From contig NC_088312.1 in the NCBI RefSeq assembly GCF_910592395.1, positions 5,642,001 to 5,706,000 of the forward strand: a stretch of 64,000 nucleotides of DNA, written 5' to 3'. This DNA is from Lineus longissimus (taxonomy: Eukaryota; Nemertea; Pilidiophora; Heteronemertea; Lineidae). The translations under genes were made by a program, and so were the position numbers. This document shows, piece by piece, positions 16,328-62,688 of the stretch. Within the stretch, counting starts at the first letter, position 1; every line of letters begins with the position of its first letter. The notes beneath the pieces are model-generated. The model saw only the letters and a list, made by a program, of their open reading frames with translations. It did not search any database and had not been told where the DNA came from.

Positions 16328-19300
16328 ATGGGTGAGGTAACCAGTCAGGGTCAGAACATGGACCTTCTTTTTGAGGTTCCTGATCTGACCCCTGGAGTCG
16401 GAGATGAAGAAATGAAGGACCAAGGGACGAGAAATGGTGGTGCCACATCCCCAAGCTCTGCAACTCCATCCAGTAAAATGAACTGTATTGATTCCATCCC
16501 AATTGCTACTTCCATTCCATTTAGCGATGTGCGCACAGAACTTCTCCAGAAGGGTAACCAGCTGTCACAGATGTGGGCTGACCTACTTGGGACTCTTATG
16601 AAATACCAAGCTGGATTAGTGTCCATGGAGGTCAAGCTGGCTGCCAATGGTGCGGGTAGTTTAAAACCTGTGCAAATCGACCAGGAAGATTGTTCATGTG
16701 GGGGGAATGGTAATTGTGCTAATACTGAGAAAATAAGACGAATTCATGACGAAATGTCTGTGAAAGATCGTCTGCTGCTGAAATGTCAGAGAGACTTGTT
16801 AGCCACTGAAGCGCGACTTACAGACACCCAAAAAGACTTGGCTGAAACCAAAGAAGTTCTGAAACAATCAAAAGTTGAGCTCCGGTCGAAAAATGAAAGG
16901 TTATCGAAACTTGAAGTTGATGTTCAAAAACTACATGAAAAGGTCAGGTTCCTGCAATCGGAGGCTAACACCAAGGATATTCTTTTGTCCAAACTTCAAA
17001 GTGAAATGGTCCGCGATAATGGTGAATTAACAATGGAGATCAACAAGATTAAAATGTCTCATGAAAATGATAAACAGCACTTGAAGATCGAGATCAGCGG
17101 TTTGAAGAGAAATCTGGACATGGAGAGGCGGGCTCATGATGAGACAAAGAGGATGTTCCGGGAGTCTGAAAGGGTGCGCTCCATTGATGCAAAGGTTGGT
17201 ACCCCTGGATGGATTTTACGGAACATGTATTAAAATTGGTCGAATTGCTTTTGAAAATTCGGAAACAGCAAACACTTATTGTGGGTTTTTTAAACTAAGA
17301 GGGAGGGAGCAGTGACTTCAGATGTCAGGTTGATCAACTTCACCCCTGCTATGAATTATTCTGCCTGTGATAATGATGGTAGCCTAGATGAATGACCCAA
17401 AGGATTTGATAGTGTCTGGTTGAAATTAAAAACTTTTCATATTGCATGAGGGATTGGTACATGAAGTGAAGTATCTTTGCCTTAATTTGAAACGACAATA
17501 AAGTACTTATCTTGGTGTTTAACTTTGCAGAATAATAATGATGAAGATAAGCTGCCAGAAGACCATGATGAGACAGATGCAATGGAGATGGAACCTGAGG
17601 TAGCCGGACTGCGGAGTCGGTCATCATCGGATGATTCCACAGAGGCACAGGTAGGAAAGCCACATTGTCTCGACCTTTGAATGAGATGAAGAAAAAAAAA
17701 ATTCCTGTAACCTTTAGCCAATGCCAGGTATGTGCCAAATTATATTGCACTGCCAAAGAAAGAAGAATATTTTCGAAACAAGCCTATTTTGTTTGTGAAC
17801 CTTTTTGCATAGGGACGTGCTGTAAATGTCAGTGTTCCCTCTTAACACTGATTTTACAGGTTGTAAATTGATGCACGAAACACCTAGTCTGCAAATTGAC
17901 AACGAGAACCTTGAGGTCAAGATCAATGAAAAATTTTAAAATATATCTTGAATTTCAGGATTTGTCAACACATGGCCGGGAATCTAGTTCAGAAACCGTT
18001 CAGCATTCTGCTTCAAAAGGTGAGACCCACAGTAAGTAACGAGAATTGGTTCATATCATTTCAATAGTAGAGCTAATAGAGAAGAACTTGGCAATTTTTA
18101 TGGTCTGTTCATGTGGCCAAGTATATGCAGATGCCAATGTACCAGGTCAACATTACTATCTTCTTATCGTCAATACCCCAGGGTGCACTGGCCATGCTTG
18201 GATAACACCCAACCATTAAAAAAATGGCCAACAGCCAACAAAGTTCAATTGCTTTAATTGTAACACTTGTTTCAAGTTCACTTCACGTTTTCTCTCAATT
18301 TCTTCTAGATTGCAAAGATGGCGACTTCAAAGTGATGCCAGAGTTCTTCCTGCCAATGAGCACCTCTCTTCCACTCCAAGGGTTTGAGACGCCCCCTGGT
18401 TGCCCGACACTGCCGCTCATGTCACATTCAGCTGGGAGCACATCACAGGTCAATATTTACTAAGACATGCGAAAAATGTGTACCATTTGAAGAAAAAACT
18501 CATTCAGGAGCCATTGTTGGGGAAACTTGCTTCAGTCAGTTAAAGTGAATTACGCACGAGCAATACATTGTCCCTCACATTCCTGTGCCTCATTTGGTAT
18601 AAAAGCCATTGAAGCATAAGGGTGGGTGCTTCTGGCTCATGGTGGTAGTGACTATGAAGATATTGTGACTGTTCGTAGCATGAAGAGGGCTTTGATTCAA
18701 AAGCAATTGTGGTATTTAATAGATATAATATTCACCTGGTGTGATATCTTTTAATGGCCTAAATTACGGGTAACTTTTGCTATATTTTTAAGGTCATCAG
18801 TGAATGAATTCTTGTTTGTATACTTGTAAATATCATGTCCATAATCAAATCGGGTGCGGTTCTTCACCTTATTGCTTTATGCTTTAACCTCATTTCTTAA
18901 TTAACACTAGTGATTTGATTTGCTGTAACCTGACGAAATTACTGATTTGCTGTTGTCACTGGAGGAGTCTTTGATAGCAGCATCCTGCAGAGATCGTTTC
19001 GTTGCATATACAGTAGAACCTCTCTATTAAGGACACCCTCGGGACTGATAAATACTGTCCTTAATAGAGAGGTGTCCTGATTAGAGAGGTCAAATTGAAT
19101 GGAAACAACCACGTTAAGACCAAAACTAGTGTCCTTAATAGAGAGGTTGTCCTTAATAGAGAGGTGTCCGCTAATGGAGGTTACACTGTAGCAGCAATTA
19201 TAATCCTAGGGGACAGCAATTTAAATTGCTCATTTTCGCGACGCATTTGTGAAGCTTGCATGCACTTCCTATCAATTCCTCTGCTCCTACCCTATCGCTA

Positions 19301-21352
19301 ACTTTGTTTTCTAACTTGCGTTTCCTGTTATGCACAAGAATGGTCGTGTAAATGTAAAAATTTGTGCTTTCATTGGCATGCTGGCAACTCATCCCCCGAT
19401 CAATTTCGCAGATTCATTATACAGATATCTGTCCCAAATATAGCCCAGTGCTTCTTTCCATTCCTGAAAGTTAGTTTTTAGTGGAATGTTTTTTGGTGAT
19501 GTCTTTGATTCTGTCTCAAAAGTAAAGATTGTGAATCGGTCTAAATTTTTGGAATTATGTGCTTCACAAGTCATACCTAGATATTCAGTGATTTCTGAGT
19601 CTTGATTTCCAACTATTTTTGTGCATCTACCAGTTTTTGCATGGTTGTTTAATAGGATTGTTTTTCAGTTGTGCTAAATTGTTAATTGTTTGATAGCTTT
19701 GTTATTTTTCTTTTATATTTTTCTTTTGATTTAAAGCTTAATTTCACGCGTCTTTGTTGTTTCTCTTGAAAAGTATTATTTTTGAGGAACCATACCTGAG
19801 GGCCTGACCTTTTTGTGAGGTAGGCCGTGTCTTGTTTTTACAGGATGACGCTTTAAGGAACATAAACAACAACGTCAATCAAAAAGGGAACGCTTGGAGT
19901 TATTCATGGTCGACATCTACGTCACTCACAGGCGACTACATACCAATAGCCGATATGGGAAAATATAAATGTGTGCAATGTGGGAACTCGTACCGCTATG
20001 CTAGCGGTTTATCTCGTCACAAACTTATACACAAACAGAAGCAATTATTCTGCCCATTTTGTCAACGTGTGTTCTTAAACTACAACACTTTATTCAGTCA
20101 TAAGAAGATGTGCACTCGCCGCCTGGAGTTCCCACGGATGATCTCCCGTTTTCTTTCACCAGATAACCAAACTGCTCCACTGATTCCAGCCCAACCTGCA
20201 GCCAAACCTCCCCCGATACTTAATTCGACCACATTGGACTTTGGTGGCGGGAATGCACCTGTAACCTAGCCTAGATAATGCCACGCTTTCTCTCAGCTTT
20301 TCCTCTGCACATTGGATTCCTTCTTAGTGGTGGTAGTCATGGCGACACCATCTCCATTTGATCTGGATTATGAAGGATTTTATTACATATGGTATGAGAT
20401 TTCCAGTTGTTTCTTATTCTTCATCTGAGTTGCCCTCAAGGCCTTGTTTTCAGAATTACTCATATGCCTATCAGGTTTCTGTCACCGGTATGTTAGGAAT
20501 GCTCATTTCAAAAGGCCCTCTTTTTGTCTGTCTTTTTGAGTTTCAAAGTACAACAAAAAAAAGTGGCTCAATTAAGACATTGCCTGTGTTATCTTTGACA
20601 TGACACCCATTTTCCATATCTCAGCAGTACAGTACAATACACTTAGTTTCTATAGTGTACAATCATTTGGTTAAAAATCTGCAAAATTATTTATTAACAT
20701 TACAGGGCATTTTGTTGTAAAGTGTAATGAAGAGTCAACAAAGCTATATTTGTGGTGATGGGAATCTTTAAGTTAATAAAGCTGTCAATACATTATGTTT
20801 GTTTATGGTGATGAGACTTATGGTTCAAAATAACCAAAGATTCACCGAATTAAACTAAACTTTGACTTTATTTTGCAGGCCCTTCTTGAACACAGGTTGA
20901 ATACCTCTCTGCCAGGGACATCAGGCCTTGATTGCATCGAGGGGAAAGTCAAGCTAGAGTCATGTAGGGGAGGGCCAAAGGTTCCACTGAGTTTAACCCC
21001 TCTGACTGGCATCTACAGAACAGGATTAGGAAACTCGCGATTCCGATGCAAATCTGGGATCTACCGATGCACTGACTGTGGCAATACGTACAATCATTCG
21101 AGCAGCCTATCACGCCATCGTTTAGTCCATCGGCAGCAACACCTGTCGTGCTCCTGGTGTAATGAGTCCTTCAACAAGTACATCCATTTGATGCAGCACC
21201 GCAAAGTCTGTGCGCAACGCAATAACCAGAATACAAATGAGTACGTCATGAAGCTGCTTGATGCGCCGAGGTTGGACGACCCCGATCATGACCATGACGA
21301 TGAAGATGACGACAATCATCCTGATATGTCACCTGATGATGGCAGGTCTTAA
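16328..21352 (+). CDS. Coiled-coil gene 1 with alternative zinc-finger C-termini
   Basis: Common exons are 16328-17194, 17531-17650, 17959-18019 and 18309-18448, together 396 residues. One of two terminal exons, 19844-20269 or 20879-21352, follows in phase 0, giving proteins of about 537 or 553 residues. The ATG has a good context (gccATGG) and an in-frame TGA at 16316. Residues 75-98 hold the motif KG-x3-SQ-x-W-x-DL-x6-Y-x-A-x-LV shared with coiled-coil gene 2. A long coiled coil spans about 133-280. Next comes an acidic, serine-rich linker (EDKLPEDHDETDAMEMEPE, then RSRSSSDDS). The product is most likely a nuclear, oligomerising DNA-binding protein whose target depends on splicing, as in fly lola. 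This is inference from architecture. The donor at 17195 (GTTGGT) and the one at 18449 (GTCAAT) are weak, consistent with regulated splicing, but they need transcript evidence. Confidence 0.8.
19009..19195. mobile_element. MITE with pogo/Tigger-like ends, in an intron of coiled-coil gene 1
   Basis: The element begins tacagtagaacctctctatt and ends ggaggttacactgta, which are imperfect inverted repeats. Inside are several copies of gtccttaatagagaggt in both orientations. The CAGTAGAACCTCTCTAT end resembles those of pogo/Tigger-type elements (from memory). It has no coding capacity. A related partial copy lies at 39035-39125. Confidence 0.65.
19844..20269 (+). CDS. Alternative terminal exon a of coiled-coil gene 1: C2H2 plus C2HC finger
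   Basis: The acceptor is tgtttttaCAG at 19843; the frame is open in phase 0 and ends at a TAG, adding 141 residues. After about 40 polar residues come two adjacent fingers: C-x2-C-x12-H-x3-H, beginning at CVQCGNSY, then C-x2-C-x12-H-x3-C, beginning at CPFCQRVF. The tail is proline-rich. The finger pair has the same spacing and many of the same residues as exon b (CGNSY against CGNTY; LSRHKLIH against LSRHRLVH), so the two exons are duplicates. A poly(A) signal follows at about 20775, before exon b. Confidence 0.85.
   Translation, partial: DDALRNINNNVNQKGNAWSYSWSTSTSLTGDYIPIADMGKYKCVQCGNSYRYASGLSRHKLIHKQKQLFCPFCQRVFLNYNTLFSHKKMCTRRLEFPRMISRFLSPDNQTAPLIPAQPAAKPPPILNSTTLDFGGGNAPVT
20774..20780 (+). 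terminator. Poly(A) signal for terminal exon a
   Basis: AATAAA within gttaataaagctg lies about 505 bases after the stop of exon a and about 100 bases before the acceptor of exon b. It would allow exon a transcripts to end before exon b. Confidence 0.5.
20879..21352 (+). CDS. Alternative terminal exon b of coiled-coil gene 1: C2H2 plus C2HC finger
   Basis: The acceptor is tattttgCAG at 20878; phase 0; stop TAA at 21350-21352; adds 157 residues. After about 60 residues with basic and Gly-rich parts come C-x2-C-x12-H-x3-H (from CTDCGNTY) and C-x2-C-x12-H-x3-C (from CSWCNESF). The C-terminus is very acidic, with an Asp/His-rich run (DDPDHDHDDEDDD). It cannot be used together with exon a in one reading frame because exon a ends in a stop. 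Confidence 0.85.
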   Translation, partial: ALLEHRLNTSLPGTSGLDCIEGKVKLESCRGGPKVPLSLTPLTGIYRTGLGNSRFRCKSGIYRCTDCGNTYNHSSSLSRHRLVHRQQHLSCSWCNESFNKYIHLMQHRKVCAQRNNQNTNEYVMKLLDAPRLDDPDHDHDDEDDDNHPDMSPDDGRS

Positions 21353-22277
21353 ACGTCATGTCGTGATACGAGTGGGTCACTTATAGGATATTATACTTGC
21401 TGTATTATTTGACTTGTGATGCCATTCAGATGTCTTCCATACTGCCATACATCCCTTTGAGTGCATTCCCCCACACTGCATAGGAATTTTTGTGGTGTGT
21501 TTTGGTGAAGTGTTAGCACAATGTAATAATCGAAAAATTTACTTATTGTTCAATGAGGGGTGGGACTTGGTTGGCCCAATTCACCAGTGTCAGCTGGAAA
21601 TCTTGACCTACTTTCGGCCAACCTTGTAGTGTGGGGGAATCGTACACTTGGATGCTCACGCTTTTTCAAATTTGATCATGTCATGAAGTCATTTCCTTTC
21701 AACTTTATTACTGACCCTTGTACTTTGGCTGTCCAATGCAGAAAGTGGTAACTTCAGATATCATTTCAACGTGTTTTTATGGTTTAAAAGCTACTCTTTC
21801 GCAGACAAAATGTGTATTCATTTTTGAATTAAGAATGTGTATAGTTCATAAAACTGTGTATAGTTCCCCATAAATGATTTATCAAGTTGAGTTAATCCAA
21901 AACATTGGCGTGTGCTTGTTGCAAGTAAATTGTTGTATTAGCTTTATGCATTGGACAGTTTTTAATATATGTTCTCAAGAGGCATTTCCAACATTTGATA
22001 CGAAGGAATCTTTCTTCCTTCAATATTTGGTAAAGTACCATAAGCGATGTGTAGTCTTCCAAGTGAATTAGTTAGGTGTCGGTTGTTATGGTTTAAATCT
22101 GATGTATGTGGGTTTGGTGATGGTACCTGGGATGTGGTCTAGTGTAGCAGTTAATTGTTAGCCATCCAGTTCATTGCTAGAACTTGTCGGCTCTTTGGTA
22201 GCATCTTTACCAGTCATTTGGGACTGACGGCTTATCATCAAATCGATCCAAATTTTCTTTGGATCTGAAAATGGAGT

Positions 22278-22540
22278 ATTGTCAGATTGTCTGATCCTTC
22301 TTTGGATTTCGAGTTTCCACTGATCAAATATTGTCAGATTGTCTGACCCTTCTTTGGATTTCGAGTTTCCACTGATTAAATATTGTCAGATTGTCTGATC
22401 CTTCTTTGGATTTCGAGTTTCCACTGATCAAATATTGTCAGATTGTCTGACCCTTCTTTGGATTTCGAGTTTCCACTGATCAAATATTGTCAGATTGTCT
22501 GACCCTTCTTTGGATTTCAAGTTTCCACTGATCAAATATT
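22278..22540. repeat. 52-bp tandem repeat, five copies
   Basis: The string attgtcagattgtctga recurs at 22278, 22330, 22382, 22434 and 22486, exactly 52 bases apart, with very few differences (gatcc or gaccc; tgatca or tgatta). High identity implies a recent expansion. Confidence 0.95.
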
Positions 22541-31218: not shown

Positions 31219-31527
31219 TCAGGTTTTGACACTGATCATAGATGTTGATACTTCCAGCAAATTCAGCTGTGTGTGATATATCTCAAAGCAGTCACGGATG
31301 CACAATGCTGGTCTAGAGGGGCACGAAGGGCAAAAGTATTTTGTTTTCTTCCGTTTTTTGTTCTTCATACTACACACACAGCACCTTCTGTTGCAAGACG
31401 TATCGACACCAAGGAAATGCCGCCCTGTCAATCGGAAGAAGTCATCTTGATTTAGTCTCGCCTTGAAACGAATGTTTGTGGTTTGTCTCATGGGATCAGA
31501 ACTTGGCATGTCGATGACGTCCTCACT
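31219..31527 (-). CDS. Alternative terminal exon F, piggyBac-type Cys-rich zinc domain
   Basis: The acceptor is ccaattgCAG at 31528; phase 0; 102 residues. The order is DDFFRLTGRHF, CCVC, a basic linker, YFCPSCPS, ALCIRDCFEIYHT. This matches the zinc-ribbon or cross-brace Cys-rich domain at the C-terminus of piggyBac transposases and their domesticated relatives, which in piggyBac binds the transposon ends. No catalytic DDD domain accompanies it. Confidence 0.82.
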   Translation of the reverse strand, partial: SEDVIDMPSSDPMRQTTNIRFKARLNQDDFFRLTGRHFLGVDTSCNRRCCVCSMKNKKRKKTKYFCPSCPSRPALCIRDCFEIYHTQLNLLEVSTSMISVKT

Positions 31528-34500
31528 CTGCAATTGGATTAACCAGACATTCATTACTTGGCGGTACATCAGGAAAAGCATTCACATTTTCAAATAGCAA
31601 AGCCAAAATGGCTATAAAATACGGTGCCCTTGTAATTTTGAAATAAGAGGCCTGCAGTGTGATATATTCAAAAGCACAGTTCAGATAAAGCAATGGTGAC
31701 AATGCCCAAGATGAAGGATAACAAGTTGTATCCGTTTGTTTGTTTGGAAAACCAAAATCGGACAAAAACAGGAACCAGTTACTTGTAGAGACTTTAAGAT
31801 CAGACAATCCCCTCAGAAATCCTTCACCGTGTGATAAATTTCAAAACAACGTCCAAGACACAATGGCGGTTCTGAGGGACAAGCCGGACAATAACAAGTC
31901 GTATCCCGCCTCAGGTCTTTCCTCCAGGAGCAGACGCGACATCGTCTTTGCATCGTCTTCCCATTCGGCGCAACCATTCGATGCTGAAAGTGTCTCCCAG
32001 TTAATCGGAACAGCTCGTCCTCCCTGAATCTTCTCGCACATGGTTTCGGTGTCGTGTTTGTTGGGTAATCGATATTCATAAAGTCCTGCAAATACATGTA
32101 AAGTGATCAGACCATTAATTATTTGGTCACTTAAACCAAGAATGACTTTGACATCTTTAGATGAAGAAATCCAAGAGGTATCCCTGCTAAATTTTGACAT
32201 GACACTTCACAGTTCTGAAATCCATCATAGTGTGATAAAGCTCAAAGCATTCATCTATACACAATGGTGGTTGAGAGGGACACGAAGGGCAGTAATACGA
32301 AGTCTCCTTTCTGTTCGCTTGTTTGACATTCTTGTTCTCGTTACAGAAATTCCAGAGGCACACACAACATTGTCTTGTGACAGTTCTTGCCCCATGACAG
32401 CTCTTCTTTCGAACTTGTTCATTTTTCTTTATGAAATGTCTTCCAGTCAATCTATATATGTCATCTTCACATCTTGACGTCCTCCACTGGCTTGAGACAC
32501 ATTCAGAAAGGTCTACTTGCAACACTGAGTCAATTACACCCTGAAGTGAGAAAATATGTCACATTACTGATTGTTCATAAGGTTTAAACTCGGACAACTC
32601 ACTGCCACCACGTGATTGCTCACTTGCTTTAGCTGTAAGAATAAAGTATTTTATAGAGCTCCGTAACAGTCTGATTTGACGCTAGCGCTAATCTGACAGT
32701 ATTAACATAAAAAAAGTAAATATCCAAGAACTTCATTGGAACAGAGTGCAACTGTTCACCAATGATGGAAATTTGACCACATTCCACTCGGATGATTATC
32801 CATTGGATCACAATAATCCAGAACATTTTTATTCCAATTCCTAGAATTTGTTTGAAATTCGAAAGACTGAGATACAGGAACCAAATAAGGACATATCATT
32901 TTACAATCTGAAATCCAGTTTGGTGTGATAAAGCTCGAAGCACTCTCCAACACATAATGGCGGCTGAGAGGGGCACGATGGGCAGTAATATGACGTCTCC
33001 TTTCTGTTTGTACGGTGTTTTGGTATGTTTTTGTTTTCGTTCTGGTAATTCCAGAGGCACACATGACATTGTCTTGTGACCACTGATGTGCTGTTCTTTT
33101 TTACTTGTCCAAAGCGCTTTATGAAATGTCGGCCCGTCAATCTAAATATGTCATCTTCAAGTCTTGTCTTTCTCCAGTTACCGGATAGATCAACCTGTCT
33201 GAGAAAGTCCACGTCCCCCTGAAGTGAAAAAATAATGTCAAGTTACTGAAGTAGGTGCTTAATGCCTGAAGGACAGTAATATGAGGTATCTCTTTGCTTT
33301 GCTTACTTCACATTCTTTTTCTCATTCTGCTATCTCCTGAGGCACACACAACATTGCCCGAGGACAGAATGACGACTGTTCTCTTTAACTCATTCGAATC
33401 TCTCCAAAATGTCTCCTCGTCAATCTGAAGAAATCGTCTTCTCATCTCGACGTCCTCGACTGATTTGAGACACATTCAGCAAAGTCTGTAAGAGATAACC
33501 TTCATTAACTGAACGGGAGTGAACCTGGCCGTCTCGCAACCTGTTTTTCAGATACAACACTGCAAGTAAAAGTTTGTCAGAAGCTGCATTCACTGTACGA
33601 TGATAAGGCACCAACAGTAACTCCACCAGGTGCTGATTTTCAATAAGGTTGGGACTGTATCTACGGTAAACTGGGGTTGAAAATGAATCTATATCATTGA
33701 GATATTAATGGAATCTATGCGGTGTTGGCTCAACAATATTTGATTTTGAGTTCACATCAGGTCATCATGCCAAAACATTCTGATTTTGATCTACCTTTCA
33801 AGGTCAAAACTGAACAGCAAACGATCGTAATAGAAACCACCCTTATCAGAAAAAAAGTAAAACGATCTCTCCTTTTTACTAAGATTCACATTAAATTTTG
33901 CTCTCATCTACAAGGCCAGACGGAATGTCTCCTTTCTACTTGATTATTTTAACACCAAAAAAACTTCTGAACTTGTTTCAAACAGTGCATGTGGTACTGT
34001 CGTTATCTCTCCCTCCAGTACAACTCCGCCTTCCTCCACGAGTTCATTCGGATCATCTGTTAGATCAATTTTAAGTCCAGATTCATCTTGCATTTCCAGT
34101 TGAACTACAGCAGCAACATCACCAGCTTCCGACTGGTGCTTTTCTACAATATGTTTCTTAAATGCACAATTCAAGTCAAATATCTCATTACAGTCTCGGC
34201 AAGTAATGTTTCCTGCATCTTTTTGCGACTCCACGTGGCGTTTGAGGCCAAACTCATCGAGAAATCCGACACTGCAACCAATGCATTTGATTGGCCAATC
34301 TTCCAATGGAGTCGGGCTTTCTTGTCTTTTCAACTTTCTGGTAGCCTTGTTACTCTGCCCACTCTTAGGGTGCCTTTCCTCAGCGTGTTTTTTAGCTGCA
34401 CACCTGAGTTCGAACGTCTCATTGCATTCTCCACAAGTTAAATTTTTCGGAACTTTTTGAGAATCAACATGCCGGTTGACACAGGCCTGGCGTCGAAAGC

Positions 34501-37500
34501 CAATCTCACATCCAGGGCACTTAAAAGGTCTCTCACCAGTGTGGCCCATACGATGGGTAAACAACTCCTGTTTATTGACATAAGATTTGCCACAAAACTC
34601 ACAGATGAACTTCTTATCGTTTTCATGTGCCTTCATATGGTACCGAATACCACTGCTGTTACTGAAGGACTTGTCACAAATTTTACAATACGCATGATCG
34701 CTGTCTGTATGTGTTTTCAAATGATCCTTCAGAGAGTATTTAGAAGTAAACGACTTGTTACAATAATTACAACGGTGAGGTCGCACCTGCTTATGCACCA
34801 ACAAATGCTCCGTTAAGCTCGTCTTCCTAGCAAAGCCACGCCCACAAACTTCACATTTAAAGGGGTAGCTACCTGTGTGGGAATACATATGGACCTTGAG
34901 GTTCCATGCAACCTTGAACTTTTGACTACAAATACTGCACTCGTGATTTCCTTTTTTCATTGTCTCTGATCGTTGATGGAATTTCTTTGCGTGCTCATCC
35001 AGTAGAGTCGGACTCACAAAACATGTAGCTTTCGAGCAGCGGGAACATGGGTACATCTTTAACTTTTTGGAAGACCGGGTTCTTCTTTTCTGAAAATATC
35101 CAATAGATGTCTGTAAATATTCTGGTGGGTTGGGACTCTGTCAGGATGGGGGCAGAATCCTATCTGATTTCTGGGAGTCAACAAAAGGCTTCTGCTGCAA
35201 TAAATTTCTGGTCATTTTATGAACTTGCAAAAGTTGACCATCAAGGAGTTATTTGAATTTACATCATGGGGCTCTGTGCCCTATATGTGACTGGAGGAAA
35301 TAAGACTACTTCAATACGGTCTTGTCTCAGAGATGAGTAGTCAGCACTGCAATGAGTGGTGCAGAGGAATGGAAGAGTCCTTGAAGCAAGTCGCTATGAA
35401 TCGATGACTTGAAGGAAAGAGATACAAAGTCAAAGAAAATAGAGTGAAATAGAGTAAAAATCATTTTTATTCCATTCAGAATACCATTACAACATGGATT
35501 TCATCATTATTTCAGGTCAAATTTCTTACAATGCAAGATAAGAAAATTTAACAGTAAACGGCACCGGTTGCATGGGCCTAAAATGGCTGATGACAACACT
35601 GTGATCCAAAGGAACTGAACACCTTTCGTTGGTAGGTCATTTACATAGCACAGCTAACACAATTGATGTAAATTAATACGTGAATTCGACAGGATTTTTG
35701 AATGAATCGTATGACGATGGGAGCCGATTGGCTGTACTGAGGAGATGATCTCATCTGAGGAAACGGAAAATGCATCGACTTGAACTAGAACACAATAATC
35801 TGATTACAATGACTGTGTCATACAATTCATCATCACAGCGCATTCAAGCAAAACGACTGATAATGTCTGAAACAAAGCGGCAAAAAACGCCATGCTCCCA
35901 TTAATAATATTACCTAGTACCATTTTCAATATCTCAATCAATTTCTTGATATATTTCTTATTTATACAACATTAAACTGAGGCACCGTCAATTGCAATTG
36001 AACTTAGTTGAAGTCCTTATATTTCACCATCTACTTTTTAGCTAAATATATCATTTCATGAAATGCATTAATTTGAACTCCAACACATTTGCATTTACTA
36101 AGAATCTCATAAAACAAACTTATCATTCAAGCAATATTACAAAAATCTGTAAAATTGTGACAATCAATCAAAACTTGATCCATTCTCAAGTTCTCAAATT
36201 CTCTCATTAACCATAACCACTGACAGTGAATCTTAAATCCTACTTGAGCTTGATCTATGAAGCAGATGATGCATTACCCGTTACCCCCCCCCCCCCACCT
36301 ACACATACCGAGAGCTTTTATTAGCATAAATTGTACAATTCATTGCATAGACTAAATCACAAAAATAATGTCAAAACAACCTTGATCTGGCCTTTGAGAC
36401 ATTTCCTGTGTTTTGACAATTCTTTGACAAAATAGAACCTTCTAAGACTACCACCAACAGTGTTTCTCATGGTGCAGCGTGCAGCAAGACTATCATTTGA
36501 CCATTACTTTGGGTTTACAACACTTTTATTGTTGTACTGTCCAAGCAAAATCATTCTGTCTCTAAATTCATAGTTGGACTACCCTTCACTGACAAGTCCA
36601 TGTCACCCGAGACACTTTCATTGAATGTGGAATCTAGACTTTCCGTCTTTATGCCATAAATTTCTTCCAGGAGGGAATGCGAGTGCTCCACTAAGAGCGC
36701 ACTCGACTTGGCTTCATCTTCTGGTGTCAAGAAGCTTGGTTTGGCCTCATACTCAGCTGGACTTAGCGTATGATATATCTCAAAACAAGAACCAGCACAT
36801 AGACCAGGATTAGATGGACAAGTCGGACAGTACATGGTCGTTTCCCGTCTCCTCCCTTGCCTGTAGCAGACACGGCAACGTTTTTGCGAATATTTACGCC
36901 GTTTCGTCGGCGGTAATCGCTCCAGGGTATGGACCCCGGTTGATGTTATGCACTGTTGGTTCGGGATGATGTTATACTTAGGCGGGTTGCAGGTGTTCAG
37001 AGTCTGCTGAGAAAAGGGTGTCATGGTTGGGGAACTGTTAAGGTCTGTCTTGTGGTGGACGATTGTCATTGTTTTCTTGGAGTCCTTAGGATAGACTACC
37101 GGTGAGCCGGAAAGAGTGTGACTGACAGCGACTGGATATGGCAATGGCATGGTGGGATAATCAGACTCAGCTCCTCGGTGGTATTTCGCCATAGAAACTT
37201 CAAAGCCAGACTCCTGCAACAAGCAAAGGATCAACAGTGAGTATTTTACAAGATCAAAGTTTGATCCCACTAGACACCAAACATGAAAACCAACATGGCA
37301 CACAAGTACACCAGAGTGGAACAAGGTGCAACTGGTTGCAAGTGAAACAAGTACCAAAATGTCCTGGACTCAAACCGAGGCAAATATATTGACCTTGCTT
37401 TAACATTGCACAGAACTCCTCACCACAGGAAGCCAACACATTCAAGACGGTGACAAAGCAAGTTTAATAAATTATCACCACCCATGCCATATTGATGCAG

Positions 37501-40500
37501 ATTCCATATCTGCAAAGGACGCCCAACAACTCGCCTGAAAATCAAACTGAATTATTTGTCCTATGTCAAGAACTTCTCTCAATATCTTATTCACAAAGCT
37601 TTTCAAAGTAAGAACTGAAAATTCCAGGCCAACCAAGGTCATCACATCTAAAATGAATTGAAGACGCCACCCTTTTAGCCACAATTCACCTGTCTTAAGT
37701 GTGACCAATCAAGGTCCACACAGTGAGGGTCGTCCACGGTGCATAGTCAAGTCACAATCTTGTATCCTGATGATGTTCTTTTCCTCCTTTGCAAATGAGA
37801 ACATCTACATGTATGAAGGTGCAGTCTCTTCACTCCGCTGAATTTGCAAAGTCAAGTTCAGTATGATAGATTTTAAAACAACCCTGATTGACACAAAGGC
37901 CTGGTTTTGAAGGGCAGTCGTCGCAAATCCATACTGTTTCGACTCTGCTACCCCTTTCTGTCTTTATACCCCGAGCGTAACAAACTCGACATCGCTTTTG
38001 ACTTCTACTTTGTCTGCCTGTTGATAACTCCTTCCCGACCTTCATTTTTGCCTTAACAGGGTAATGTCTACCAGTAAGGCGAACAACGTCATCAACATGG
38101 CGATGCATACGTCCTTTATGATAATGATGTCCACTTCTATCGCTATGTTTATAACTTTCCGCGTTACAAAGTTCAAGGACAGCACACTCCTCCATATCCT
38201 GCAATTATAACAAGGACCCAGTTTTCACACCTTTCTCAGATTTGGCAAAGCTGACATTACTTATAAGGCTAAGCAAAACTAAGTTCTGTGTGATATATTT
38301 TAAATCATTTGTCAATGCGAGGGCCTGGTTTCGAGGGGCAGTCGACACAAGTCCACATCGTATCAATTGCGTTTCCTTTGTTTGTTCTCACGCCACGAGT
38401 ATAACAGATCCGGCATAGTTTTGTTGGTGTTCTTTTGCTCAGAGACCCCTCGTCTGGGCCCTTCTTCATTGGAAAACGCCTTCGGTGAGGTGCAAAATAT
38501 CGTCCATGTTGCTGCATTCTTAACGTCAGAATTCGTTATCAGACTCCGCTTGTTTAAAATTTACATCAATCCTTGATGTCACATGGTACTTTGCAGGCCT
38601 GTTCCATTGAGTGTAACCTCATACCATACCAACGCACGCCTTTAGGAGAATGAAAATGACTAAACCAAGGAAACAAAGAGGAAATTATGTACATGCACTC
38701 CATTACAGGTCCCTGAAGAGGAACACACTCTTCTTACATGTTTTAGAAAGTCAAATCTTTGTATATATTGAACATACTGTACATGAATGAACAATGAAGA
38801 CGATTTATTCAACTTGTCGAAGAATTAGCAAAATAAGAACCTGACTGGTCAGCATTTTGAGTACATTGTAAAAATACCATGAATGCGGCTTCGCACTATT
38901 AATAAACAAGGTGAGAGACAGACAAAAAACAATTCAATAACACAACAGGGTTTATAGAAATGTCTACAGAATGTTTCAACTATTTTAGAAGACACTGTTG
39001 AGGACATTGGTGATCGCAAATTGGTCGTTTCCATTCAATTTGACCTCTCTAATCAGGACATGTCTCTATTTTAGGACAGCACTCTTCATGAGGGTATCCT
39101 GAATAGAGAGGTCCTACTCTACTTTAGATAGTTTTAAATTTGTGTCTCTGCTAGTCTTTTCAAAAAAAATAAACGTAGCTACGACTGATTACTTTATTGG
39201 ATAGTTTGCAGGCTTGTCCACATATAATGAAAACTGGGCCAGAAATTGGGCACCATGAAATCAAAACCACGATTTACTGTTGATAATTCCATATTTATTC
39301 AAATCTTGAATTTTCCTTTATGGATGGGGGGAAACCCCTTGGATACATGGACAAACCCTGGTCATAACTTTGTGTCGAGGACGATAATATTCGACTTCAA
39401 GATTCTCAATTTTTCACGGGGAATATCATTCATGTCCTTTCCTTTTCATCATATCGATAGATCACAGCAAAAGCGATCGAGTTTTATCAGGCACTCGTCG
39501 AATCAAATATGTTTCTTGGAATTTTGTATGAGTTGCCAAGAAGAAATATGACCCCATCATCTTCCTCAACGCAAGTTACAACAGTATGATGGAAAAGAAA
39601 TCAATATTTACCTCTGTTGGTTCCGTTTTCACTTTAACGAGATCATCACTCGTCGATGGTTCTGGTTCAGGATTGTCAAAATCGTCATCGACTGATTCAG
39701 CACCACCTTCTAATATATAATCTGTGTCTTTAGGGTCATCTTCAGCACTATCTTCAGGGGACGATCGGGAATTGTCATTTTTTTGTGATGAAGAGCTTTG
39801 TCTGGGAGAGGCCTGAAAAAAAATTTCAACATTTAGATAAAATCAACGGCAGGAGTACAAAGAAAGATGAGGACTAAAACACTAGATGACTGCATTTACC
39901 AAAAGTGGAATATCCCATTGGCATTGTGTTGGCAAAGCTGTCAACATACTGTAGTATCACTTTTCATTTGTGGGTCAGAAAACGTGGACAGAATCACAGA
40001 TCTACATGTATGTTCAACCAAATTGTGCAGCAGCATACATAATGTAGAGCTCTTTGTCATCCACAAAAACAAAACCAAACAACTACACTGTTGACATTGT
40101 CATTCAAGCCAACTTACTCGGAGAGAAATGGCCGATGCCGAGTCATCTCCTGTTCTCAATACTTTAGCAGAACCAGACGTCACCAGAATTGGTCGTTTTC
40201 TCGACTGCCTTGAGCATGATTTTCCACCAGGTGTCGCCATGGAACGAACTTGTTTCGACACCTGACTAATAACAAAGTCTTTGTTCTTGATTTCTGCTGA
40301 AAGATCCAAAATTCGTCGATCAAGCACTTTGATTCGTTGTTCATGACCGCTAATATCTACATCCTTGCTTGCCAACTCCTTTTCAATTGTTTGTATATGG
40401 AAGTCTTTTAACTGCAATTCTTTTCTTAATTCAGCTAGCTCTTTTTCTAAACTGTTTATCTCTCCCATGTAAGTCATGATTTTTTCGTCTTTTTCAACAT

Positions 40501-40867
40501 TGTCCTGCTGTAGCACCGCTATCACTGGTGAAGGTTCTGAAGATTTCAGCGCACTCAGATTTAGTCTACTTTCTTCACTTTTTAGTTTAGCCTCCCTGAT
40601 GTCTATTTCACCACTTTTATTTACTAATTCAGCTTCATACTGATTCATTAGTGAAAATAGATCTGTCCATGTCTGACTCATCAGACTGCCCTTCTCCCGA
40701 ATAACTTCTTTGAAGCGTCCATCCACAATACATGATTCCTCCACCAGTTCAGATGTTGACTCGATCATGCCCACCAGCATGTTTTCTCTCGCAGGTTCTG
40801 AGGGATCTCCCTCACTCTTGAAATCATCAATGATATCACCAGTTATGGTCACTCTCTCTTGCGCCAT
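31219..40867 (-). CDS. Coiled-coil gene 2 with an array of alternative piggyBac-type or C2H2 terminal exons
   Basis: The common part is exon 1 (40867-40118, 250 residues) and exon 2 (39812-39612, 67 residues), both ending in phase 0. The ATG follows an in-frame TAA at 40912-40910 and an acceptor at 40918. Residues 59-82 carry KG-x3-SQ-x-W-x-DL-x6-Y-x-A-x-LV, as in coiled-coil gene 1, and a coiled coil runs from about 120 to 215. A basic SRQSRKRP patch near 230 could be a nuclear signal. Exon 2 is acidic and serine-rich and ends VKVKTEPTE, which contains a SUMO-type VKTE. Seven intact terminal exons follow, each with an AG acceptor, phase 0 entry and its own stop, so each transcript can end in only one of them. 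Predicted role: a family of nuclear DNA-binding proteins sharing one oligomerisation part. Joining of exons is inferred from phase and position. Confidence 0.8.
31657..31734 (-). pseudogene. Decayed piggyBac-type exon fragment
   Basis: On the minus strand this reads TDTTCYPSSWALSPLLYLNC then AFEYIT, a clear degraded copy of the C-terminal half of exon E next door (DTTCYCPACPSEPPLCLGRC then FEIYHT). Several zinc-binding cysteines and the YHT end are lost. The DNA aligns well with exon E across the same stretch (ataacaagt(t/c)gtatcc; gtgtgata). Confidence 0.75.
31813..32085 (-). CDS. Alternative terminal exon E, piggyBac-type Cys-rich zinc domain
   Basis: The acceptor is tgtatttgCAG at 32086; phase 0; 90 residues. 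It reads DELFRLTGRHF, then RRCRVC, DTTCYCPACPS, PPLCLGRCFEIYHT, and stops within five residues after that. It is a minimal module: the domain is almost the whole exon. The degraded copy at 31657-31734 is its closest relative here. Confidence 0.85.
   Translation of the reverse strand, partial: DFMNIDYPTNTTPKPCARRFREDELFRLTGRHFQHRMVAPNGKTMQRRCRVCSWRKDLRRDTTCYCPACPSEPPLCLGRCFEIYHTVKDF
32187..32540 (-). CDS. Alternative terminal exon D, piggyBac-type Cys-rich zinc domain
   Basis: The acceptor is ctcacttCAG at 32541; phase 0; 117 residues. It has EDDIYRLTGRHF, CCVC, a long basic linker, ETSYYCPSCPSQPPLC and CFELYHT. It is a close sister of exon C (same linker words ENKN and NRKETSYYC; same VDLS lead), so C and D arose by a local tandem duplication. 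Confidence 0.85.
   Translation of the reverse strand, partial: GVIDSVLQVDLSECVSSQWRTSRCEDDIYRLTGRHFIKKNEQVRKKSCHGARTVTRQCCVCLWNFCNENKNVKQANRKETSYYCPSCPSQPPLCIDECFELYHTMMDFRTVKCHVKI
32901..33218 (-). CDS. Alternative terminal exon C, piggyBac-type Cys-rich zinc domain
   Basis: The acceptor is ttcacttCAG at 33219; phase 0; 105 residues. It has EDDIFRLTGRHF, CHVC, a basic linker, ETSYYCPSCPSQPPLC and CFELYHT, and stops shortly after. Even the acceptor context resembles that of exon D (cacttcagggg against cacttcagggt), showing that intron ends were duplicated along with the exons. Confidence 0.85.
   Translation of the reverse strand, partial: GDVDFLRQVDLSGNWRKTRLEDDIFRLTGRHFIKRFGQVKKNSTSVVTRQCHVCLWNYQNENKNIPKHRTNRKETSYYCPSCPSQPPLCVGECFELYHTKLDFRL
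33271..33485 (-). pseudogene. Decayed piggyBac-type exon related to exons C and D
   Basis: The acceptor is still present (tctcttaCAG at 33486). The frame homologous to exon D reads FAECVSNQSRTSR, stop, EDDFFRLTRRHF, with further stops and a lost CxxC; a trace of TSYYCP remains near 33280. In phase 0 the acceptor would instead give only 21 unrelated residues and a stop at 33420. So this is a dead exon, unless it is used to make a truncated protein. Confidence 0.8.
33944..35089 (-). CDS. Alternative terminal exon with about ten C2H2 zinc fingers
   Basis: The acceptor is tattttCAG at 35090; phase 0; 381 residues. It opens with a basic KRRTRSSKKLK, a likely nuclear signal, and then has about ten C2H2-type fingers, from CSRCSK to the last, CRDCNEIF. 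Two of them (CPGCEIGF and CIGCSVGF) lack the final His, reading HVDSQ or HVESQ. Some links are of the TGERPFKC type. The acidic tail is LTDDPNELVEEGG and more. It lies between the piggyBac-type exons and joins in the same phase, so it is most simply another choice of C-terminus. It also has an internal ATG at 35056 and could be a separate gene; transcripts would decide. Confidence 0.75.
   Translation of the reverse strand, partial: KRRTRSSKKLKMYPCSRCSKATCFVSPTLLDEHAKKFHQRSETMKKGNHECSICSQKFKVAWNLKVHMYSHTGSYPFKCEVCGRGFARKTSLTEHLLVHKQVRPHRCNYCNKSFTSKYSLKDHLKTHTDSDHAYCKICDKSFSNSSGIRYHMKAHENDKKFICEFCGKSYVNKQELFTHRMGHTGERPFKCPGCEIGFRRQACVNRHVDSQKVPKNLTCGECNETFELRCAAKKHAEERHPKSGQSNKATRKLKRQESPTPLEDWPIKCIGCSVGFLDEFGLKRHVESQKDAGNITCRDCNEIFDLNCAFKKHIVEKHQSEAGDVAAVVQLEMQDESGLKIDLTDDPNELVEEGGVVLEGEITTVPHALFETSSEVFLVLK
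36284..36297. repeat. Poly-C run
   Basis: A run of about 13-14 C residues lies within the non-coding stretch between the C2H2 exon and exon B. Its length is likely to be variable. Confidence 0.9.
36524..36530 (-). terminator. Possible poly(A) signal for exon B
   Basis: AATAAA on the minus strand lies within caacaataaaagtg, about 20 bases after the stop of exon B. A second candidate is near 35465. Both lie before the next terminal exon on this strand. Confidence 0.4.
36551..37213 (-). CDS. Alternative terminal exon B, long, piggyBac-type Cys-rich domain plus acidic tail
   Basis: The acceptor is gcttgttgCAG at 37214; phase 0; 220 residues. The first ~120 residues are polar, Pro/Thr-rich and lack RLTGRHF. 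Then come KRCRVC, RRRETTMYCPTCPS, PGLCAGSCFEIYHT. Unlike the other modules, an extra ~65-residue acidic tail follows, with a GIKTES segment (a SUMO-type motif). This may be the isoform with extra regulatory parts. Confidence 0.82.
   Translation of the reverse strand, partial: ESGFEVSMAKYHRGAESDYPTMPLPYPVAVSHTLSGSPVVYPKDSKKTMTIVHHKTDLNSSPTMTPFSQQTLNTCNPPKYNIIPNQQCITSTGVHTLERLPPTKRRKYSQKRCRVCYRQGRRRETTMYCPTCPSNPGLCAGSCFEIYHTLSPAEYEAKPSFLTPEDEAKSSALLVEHSHSLLEEIYGIKTESLDSTFNESVSGDMDLSVKGSPTMNLETE
37830..38198 (-). CDS. Alternative terminal exon A, piggyBac-type Cys-rich zinc domain
   Basis: The acceptor is ttataattgCAG at 38199; phase 0; 122 residues. It has DDVVRLTGRHYPV, a basic stretch, KRCRVC, VETVWICDDCPS, PGLCVNQGCFKIYHTELDF. 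The last cysteine pair is spaced C-x4-C rather than C-x3-C. It is closest to the decayed copy just upstream at 38284-38515. Confidence 0.85.
   Translation of the reverse strand, partial: DMEECAVLELCNAESYKHSDRSGHHYHKGRMHRHVDDVVRLTGRHYPVKAKMKVGKELSTGRQSRSQKRCRVCYARGIKTERGSRVETVWICDDCPSKPGLCVNQGCFKIYHTELDFANSAE
38284..38515 (-). pseudogene. Decayed piggyBac-type exon related to exon A
   Basis: The frame reads HGRYFAPHRRRF, KLCRICYTRG, DTMWTCVDCPSKPGPRIDK and then a stop, where exon A has GLC..CF. FKIYHTE is still readable just after the stop. The LC and the cysteine before F are gone, and no polypyrimidine tract or good acceptor precedes it. Parts of it still look constrained, so decay is recent. 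Confidence 0.75.
39035..39125. mobile_element. Partial copy of the pogo-like MITE
   Basis: cattcaatttgacctctct and aatagagaggtcctact match the element at 19009-19195 inside coiled-coil gene 1. This copy is in an intron of coiled-coil gene 2 and is truncated. Confidence 0.6.
39612..39812 (-). CDS. Common exon 2 of coiled-coil gene 2: acidic linker
   Basis: Its borders are an acceptor at 39813 (tttttCAG) and a donor at 39611 (GAG then GTAAAT); phase 0 to phase 0; 67 residues. It is rich in Ser, Asp and Glu (SSPEDSAEDDPKDTD and on) and ends in VKVKTEPTE. It corresponds in position and character to the acidic linker exons of coiled-coil gene 1, which also contribute a 67-codon piece (exons 3 and 4). 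Confidence 0.8.
40118..40867 (-). CDS. Common exon 1 of coiled-coil gene 2: start, shared motif, coiled coil
   Basis: It starts MAQERVTITGD and ends in a phase 0 donor (CGA then GTAAGT). The shared motif at residues 59-82 has 11 identities in 24 positions, without gaps, to coiled-coil gene 1. Heptad-like regions then run to about residue 215 (EKELAELRKELQLKD and on). ATPGGKSCSRQSRKRP follows. An FKSE near residue 17 is a further SUMO-type site. Confidence 0.82.

Positions 40868-47806: not shown

Positions 47807-62688
<14,882 letters not shown>

Follow-up and report, generated by a model that had tools for sequence, protein, structure and literature searches.

Whether a domain taken from a transposase can become an interchangeable part of a host gene is the question raised by a locus in the genome of the nemertean Lineus longissimus. 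The locus lies on the minus strand of chromosome 5 (C5), at positions 40867-31219 of a stretch of 64,000 nucleotides (C5:5642001-5706000), which is called the window throughout, and reads as two common exons followed by a series of terminal exons, six of which encode a piggyBac-type cysteine-rich domain (CRD) and one of which encodes C2H2 zinc fingers. Quite probably, the locus is a host gene in which seven or more 3' terminal exons are used one at a time, in the manner of lola or mod(mdg4) of Drosophila, and its CRD modules would have been captured from piggyBac elements and then duplicated. Its parts are, in 5' to 3' order:

40118..40867, minus strand: common exon 1, with the ATG at 40867, 250 codons, a coiled coil and the donor GTAAGT
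39612..39812, minus strand: common exon 2, with 67 codons, the acceptor TTTTTTTTCAG and the donor GTAAAT
38276..38535, minus strand: broken CRD copy adjoining exon A, profile match at E 3.3e-7, with a repeat member at 38276-38307 and a stop within the domain
37830..38198, minus strand: terminal exon A, CRD, PF13842 at E 9.2e-10, CAG acceptor, phase 0
36551..37213, minus strand: terminal exon B, CRD with long flanks and with RLTGRHF reduced to TGxH, PF13842 at E 1.4e-8, with an acceptor
33944..35089, minus strand: seventh terminal exon Z, C2H2, zf-C2H2 at E 9.9e-30 in six stretches, CAG acceptor, phase 0
33268..33487, minus strand: second broken CRD copy, exon D-like, 72-80% nucleotide identity to parts of D
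32901..33218, minus strand: terminal exon C, CRD with a 17-residue loop, PF13842 at E 1.8e-6, without Met
32187..32540, minus strand: terminal exon D, CRD with a 15-residue loop, PF13842 at E 3.4e-5, 70% identical to C
31813..32085, minus strand: terminal exon E, CRD, PF13842 at E 7.9e-9, piggyBat structure 9c0f at E 5.8e-6
31219..31527, minus strand: terminal exon F, CRD, PF13842 at E 1.3e-6

A preliminary description of this DNA had proposed a single coiled-coil N-terminus on two common exons followed by six intact CRD exons, and both parts are found as proposed. The common exons are whole numbers of codons and therefore of phase 0. Exon 1 carries a basic stretch, RKRP, resembling a nuclear localisation signal near its 3' end, and exon 2 is acidic (20 D/E versus 6 K/R in 67 residues) and contains one SUMO-consensus VKTE; Pfam finds no BTB domain in either of them, exon 1 giving sub-threshold matches only and exon 2 none. 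All seven terminal exons are entered in phase 0 after CAG and end with their own stop, which together with the common 5' exons is the layout of lola and mod(mdg4). The acceptors of the six CRD exons had been predicted correctly in kind, but the coordinates given for them were one base early, on the last base of the intron. The CRD exons encode 90 to 220 residues each, with the CRD as the sole Pfam match above the cut-off. Exon C is devoid of Met and exon D has none before the end of the CRD, so AUG-initiated C and D domains require an upstream exon; in A, B, E and F, an in-frame Met occurs among the first eight codons. AATAAA or ATTAAA lies within 900 nucleotides of the stop in A, B, C and F, and in B the signal AATAAA is found 20 nucleotides past it.

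The presence of a C2H2 exon amid the CRD exons makes the array a mixed one; neither this exon nor the two broken CRD copies figured in the preliminary description. The likeness to lola and mod(mdg4) that had been suggested, with modules taken from a transposase, therefore stands for the alternative terminal exons but does not describe the whole array. Each reading frame of the second broken copy, at 33487-33268, contains stops, and its match to C is interrupted by three of them. A profile of the six exons finds no further intact CRD copy in the window. Because intact CRD copies stand beside two broken ones, the locus reads as a record of the birth and death of modules.

The identity of the domain follows from several comparisons. 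The Pfam family PF13842 (zf-Tnp_2), named beforehand as the profile with which the exons should be checked, scores above its gathering threshold in all six (E 9.2e-10 to 3.4e-5), and the cut-off is also passed by the three CRD exons found at other loci of the same gene family (L011, L017 and L037). The motif RLTGRHF, which had been expected in most exons, is exact in four of the six and is RLTGRHY in another; exon B keeps TGxH only, yet the His that serves as first ligand is retained. Among solved structures, the CRD of the piggyBat transposase (PDB 9c0f) is matched at E 5.8e-6 by exon E, the only exon searched singly against the PDB, and at E 4.8e-6 by the six-exon profile. In the alignment, eight residues are invariant in all six exons (H32, C49, C52, C66, C69, C76, C80 and H85, in exon E numbering), which gives the predicted zinc ligand order H-CxxC-CxxC-C-C-H; all eight are also kept in the three CRD exons of the other loci. 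The same order is described for PiggyMac (H701, C712, C715, C723, C726, C737, C745 and H749), and the pattern has been extended by sequence to piggyBat and human PGBD2-4 (PMC8086355). The PHD-like CRD of Trichoplusia ni piggyBac (CxxC-CxxC-CxxH-CxxC) was considered as a model and rejected, since its ligand pattern does not fit. The modules are thus piggyBac-type, as first described, in their PF13842 and piggyBat matches, but their ligands follow piggyBat and PiggyMac rather than T. ni piggyBac.

Selection on the exons can be judged from a single pair. Synonymous divergence (dS) is saturated in 12 of the 15 exon pairs, and among B/E, C/D and D/E only C/D has a value below 1; therefore only C/D was used. 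Its core has a nonsynonymous divergence (dN) of 0.175 and a dS of 0.937 (NG86), a dN/dS of about 0.19, and across 103 codons the pair differs 22, 18 and 42 times at the first, second and third positions, which is the pattern left by purifying selection. Given the PF13842 E-values, the dN/dS of this pair and its excess of third-position differences, the CRD matches are not due to chance.

No catalytic part of a transposase was found with the array. A profile built from 12 core frames of piggyBac elements of the L. longissimus genome finds no catalytic domain at E<=0.01 in the 64-kb window, as had been claimed for it, or in L017, L037 and L078, and neither a DDE core of the PGBD or transposon type nor a whole transposase frame of the CSB-PGBD3 type was found in the window. 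The same profile gives clear matches in the element loci L010, L021, L022 and L025-L027, none in L014 and L019, and a single faint match in L011 (28 profile positions, E 0.005). By eye, the frame in L019 resembles a C-terminal piece of the transposase core.

Likely relatives of the donors are resident in the genome. A genome search for PF13842 finds 85 places at E<=0.001, including five of the six window exons (D did not reach the E cut), many of which lie in open frames as long as those of whole transposases, several hundred residues; part of the 85 was fetched and aligned. In the element family formed by L009, L010, L012 and L013, the CRD has a frame of its own, apart from the catalytic one, and the DNA of L009 and L012 has GAG|GTAAGT and TTTTTCCAG|GTT, taken to be the borders of a phase-0 intron. 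In L012, the CRD exon begins 26 residues ahead of RLTERHF, and window exons A, C, D, E and F begin 25 to 39 residues ahead of RLTG, as counted by eye. A phase-0 acceptor stands directly 5' of the element CRD in L012, L013, L020 and L022. In some elements the CRD thus has a phase-0 terminal exon to itself, and the insertion of such an element would hand a ready-made exon to a gene whose donor is in phase 0. Domain identity, exon phases, zinc ligands and, in some elements, a separate CRD exon can all be read directly from the sequence.

One locus of the coiled-coil family may have taken up such an exon more recently. The CRD exon of L011 is nested within the L009/L010/L012/L013 family in the tree (support 100/99) and has 79% DNA identity to L009 and L012; the match starts 11 bases before the exon and stops less than 30 bases past its stop codon, and the L009 element continues for about 630 bases beyond the end of that match. 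The remaining parts of the element give only short or low-complexity matches in L011, which is a family locus with an element-type CRD exon and little else of the element. Between the L011 and L012 exons, dN is 0.17 and dS 0.71, with 16, 13 and 31 differences at the three codon positions over 91 codons, a pattern partly owed to the element's own constraint. Separately, L014 holds a lone CRD frame (L014:3862-4203, minus strand, C3:9822876) with no catalytic match in 10 kb; the coiled-coil searches of the genome find no match on C3, the chromosome on which it lies. In viral contigs, no relative was confirmed for CRD exon D or for exon 1.

The tree on which these groupings rest contains 66 of 68 CRD rows over 81 columns, with several long branches flagged; L001-L007 and L029, which are repeats of other loci, the identical row L052 and the broken copy were left out, and at E 1e-4 no row was obtained from L071 or L072. 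Exons C to F unite in a single clade (99/95), A groups with another element lineage (88/83), and B joins the exon of L037 (98/71), with long branches. Clades of C-F plus A (p-AU, from the approximately unbiased test, 0.21) and of C-F plus B (0.102) are both compatible with the data. The candidate history in which a single capture gave rise to the nine array exons of all four loci was rejected as a single clade (p-AU 2.9e-10), which implies captures more than once across the family.

That family is nearly confined to one chromosome. Of an assembly of 391,118,348 bases in 30 contigs, C5 makes up 6%; when the genome is searched with exon 1, C5 accounts for 48 of the 61 rows obtained at E<=10. A typical member (C5:3796474), searched by its N-terminus, yields 47 rows at E<=0.01, and the 44 on C5 correspond to 43 loci, one being split in two rows; the other three are a match of nearly full length on C11, a fragment of 31 residues on C1 and a weak match on C12. 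Adding three weak matches from the exon 1 search (E 0.125, 1.25 and 2.7) gives a list of 46 loci on C5; another row on that chromosome, with E 5.8 and within a frame of 1097 residues, was not included. Among these 46 are eight neighbouring head-to-head pairs with less than 4 kb between matches, two of which rest on weak matches. Exon 1 of the window is divergent, matching the typical N-terminus at 24% identity (E 6e-7). The window contains a sister locus as well (16328-21352, plus strand), the 3' end of which faces that of the CRD locus:

16328..17194, plus strand: coiled-coil exon of the sister locus, 24% identity to exon 1 at E 6e-6, family match at E 1.9e-16, ends set by eye
19844..20269, plus strand: terminal exon of the sister locus, C2H2 pair
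20879..21352, plus strand: second terminal exon of the sister locus, C2H2 pair

Terminal modules recur downstream of other members. L011 (C5:22.37 Mb), L017 (C5:8.03 Mb) and L037 (C5:21.31 Mb) each have a single CRD exon 3' to the coiled coil and on its strand, with C2H2 exons further on; in L037 the coiled coil is a weak match (E 1.25) accepted by eye from its frame. In L078, which follows a typical member, there are five C2H2 terminal exons, all with a candidate phase-0 acceptor, and L033 has a C2H2 frame near the coiled coil. Two further CRD-profile matches were judged spurious, one because it lies on the opposite strand (L032:1284-1427, E 0.0096) and the other because it is the tail of the coiled-coil frame (L078:2-115, E 0.002). 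The second common exon of typical members (L079:845-1660, L017:7093-7692 and L078:241-1038) contains a conserved VIEIPDSPP, which we take to resemble a SUMO-interacting motif, and a stretch PVPVSGPIP or PVPISGPIP. In the member at C5:1790383, a phase-0 terminal exon (L080:1181-1579, plus strand) encodes a helix-turn-helix-like stretch and an AT-hook-like KKRGRPQK; it has no match of note in Pfam, NCBIfam or PDB, and by resemblance it is possibly a third type of captured module.

What the terminal modules might recognise is suggested by piggyBat, in which two CRDs jointly bind an imperfect palindrome, mainly via the loop after the first strand, and R543 and E545 contact bases (PMC11707139). The position equivalent to R543, assigned by our own alignment with an inferred numbering offset of 6, is R throughout the six window exons and the three CRD exons found elsewhere in the family, and among the element CRDs it is R in 43 of 57. 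At the E545 equivalent, the window exons have E in four cases, D in one and K in one, and the three other exons have V, A and D (E/D in one of three). The loop preceding the R543 position spans 5 to 17 residues in the six exons and 5 to 19 in elements; this variation in length, with the ligands kept, suggests a retained scaffold bearing a variable reading loop. The CRD cores of the window are basic (isoelectric point, pI, 8.9-9.6). From these features we infer that the CRDs of the array bind DNA; the earlier suggestion that they might recognise transposon ends is so far conjectural.

The arrangement of the locus then suggests how it may work. All seven terminal exons are presumably spliced to exon 2, the coiled coils would oligomerise, and the proteins would regulate transcription or chromatin. 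From one promoter, the shared exons would supply oligomerisation through the coiled coil, nuclear entry through RKRP and an acidic segment with VKTE, and the choice among seven terminal exons would set the binding target, the outcome being a set of chromatin proteins with common partners and different binding. Pairing through the coiled coil would suit CRDs that in piggyBat are dimeric on a palindrome, and mixed pairs of isoforms would multiply the targets. The CRD modules would derive from resident piggyBac elements: an element landing in the intron after a phase-0 donor would provide a ready-made terminal exon, the remainder of the element would decay, and the CRD exon would persist and duplicate.

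Parts of this logic are known from other systems. In lola, a common N-terminus with a BTB domain is joined to alternative terminal exons with C2H2 zinc fingers, and C2H2 terminal exons of this kind occur in the sister locus and in L078. In mod(mdg4), common 5' exons are likewise combined with over 30 alternative 3' ends, and most isoforms carry variants of one zinc domain, FLYWCH (PMC5666082), which is stated to derive from a Mutator transposase (PMC10027918); specific variants repress the HeT-A retrotransposon (PMC9723646). It differs from the present case in being a single locus and in having a BTB and Q-rich N-terminus with FLYWCH, instead of a coiled coil with piggyBac CRDs, and recent element copies feeding the array are not reported in the part of that account drawn on here (PMC5666082). 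In CSB-PGBD3 of primates, a piggyBac element that brings an acceptor and a polyadenylation signal of its own acts as an alternative 3' terminal exon, and the authors of that work term piggyBac a natural exon trap (PMC2268245); there, however, a whole transposase lies in one exon, whereas here six exons hold the CRD only and no catalytic domain is found. The CRDs of piggyBat, PGBD2-4 and PiggyMac, which are cross-brace zinc domains, share with the array the eight-ligand order H-CxxC-CxxC-C-C-H, but in those proteins the domain is C-terminal to a transposase core, and here it is placed on the terminal exons of a coiled-coil gene. Host-transposase fusion genes are described as well, among them a multicopy host family that captured a transposase domain by exonisation, the F-box A2 family with a Tc1/mariner helix-turn-helix; element and host domain are different, an array of alternative modules is not reported in the portion of that paper used here, and one of its section titles states that the helix-turn-helix is not involved in a tested role (PMC12062965). 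A literature search in which subscription journals are thinly covered turned up no account of piggyBac CRD exons arranged as an array, of a family of loci with CRD exons on a single chromosome, or of a gene that had newly acquired a lone CRD exon. The preliminary description, which knew of no described case, was therefore too strong as to the exon logic, for which mod(mdg4) and CSB-PGBD3 are precedents; the modules and the scale appear new.

Several observations weigh against a host gene with captured and duplicated modules, or limit it. Exons A and F have acceptors of no more than moderate quality (59% pyrimidine, a value reached by 18% of all AGs on the strand), and no AATAAA or ATTAAA is found within 900 nucleotides of the stop of D, E or Z. 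The predicted structures are poor, with a mean pLDDT, the confidence score of AlphaFold, of 49.7 and 60.1 in two jobs with six-row alignments, so the putative cross-brace fold rests on sequence. Among three loci taken with at least 6 kb and with downstream content unknown beforehand (L078, L079 and L080), a C2H2 array is present in one, L078, and the 6 kb each of L079 and L080 are without C2H2 or CRD. The six window exons are also compatible with a single clade (p-AU 0.143); together with the rejection of the nine-exon clade, this gives more than one capture in the family and, possibly, one to three within the CRD locus. Finally, the CRD of PiggyMac binds histone H3 and not DNA (PMC8086355), so that DNA binding by the array CRDs is not assured.

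This last point opens an alternative, possible if on the unlikely side, in which the array is as described but its CRDs read histone tails or protein partners. PiggyMac, with the same ligand order, binds H3(1-19) through a CRD without DNA binding, and the CRD of Tpb2 prefers H3 trimethylated on K9 or K27 (PMC8086355); the variable C-termini of Mod(mdg4) proteins, too, interact with different proteins (PMC5666082). The basic cores of the array differ from the CRD of PiggyMac (Pgm), with a pI of 5.48, yet CRDs of PiggyMac-like (PgmL) proteins with very different pI bind H3 (PMC8086355). In favour of DNA, the only significant solved relative is the DNA-bound CRD of piggyBat, and the position of its base-contacting Arg is R in nine of nine array exons. 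It is improbable that the array is instead a graveyard of piggyBac terminal exons in the 3' flank of a C2H2-type gene, with the C2H2 exon alone functional. Two of eight CRD copies are indeed broken, the genome is rich in piggyBac-type CRDs, as its 85 PF13842 places indicate, and L011 has an element-derived exon; but 64 kb contain no catalytic remnant at E<=0.01, six exons are open with their eight ligands, C and D differ by an excess at third positions with a dN/dS of about 0.19, and C, D, E and F cluster together and not with separate elements.

Two further explanations concern how the terminal exons are expressed. That they are separate small genes, or are joined to other 5' exons with promoters of their own, would suit the early Met codons of A, B, E and F, but not the lack of one in C or, before the end of the domain, in D; as all seven acceptors match the phase of exon 2 and the same-strand order of coiled coil and then terminal exons is repeated in L011, L017, L037 and L078, this is very improbable. 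Trans-splicing of separately initiated 3' transcripts, as in mod(mdg4), would leave the rest of the reading intact; seven terminal exons across 7 kb resemble the layout of that gene, but all parts lie on one strand, in order and within 10 kb, and such a route is judged quite improbable.

Beyond the single locus, the roughly 45 coiled-coil genes of chromosome 5 might be landing sites for DNA-binding terminal exons, taking up again and again the phase-0 CRD exon of resident piggyBac elements, along with C2H2 and perhaps other transposase-type modules; the captured modules would duplicate and diversify, and the isoforms would find and silence the source elements or their relics, whose ends the domains once recognised. 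This is a speculative and rather doubtful extension. It would amount to a growing, genome-encoded catalogue of readers of transposon ends, comparable in its logic to the expansion of KRAB zinc-finger genes.

Elsewhere in the window, a tandem repeat with nearly identical units of some 60-70 bases (ATATTGTCAGATTGTCTGA...) is visible by eye at 22260-22540, and a frame with a C2 domain (58555-58992, minus strand; Pfam C2, E 9.3e-8) belongs to an unrelated neighbouring gene.

If the CRD locus is transcribed as it is read here, the domain with which a transposase reads the ends of its DNA would have become an interchangeable part of a combinatorial regulator. The near-confinement of the family to one chromosome raises the question of how such families grow. 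Since related donor elements apparently remain in the genome, and one more recent capture may stand alongside older, duplicated ones, the route by which transposase domains enter transcription factors would become directly testable in one animal.

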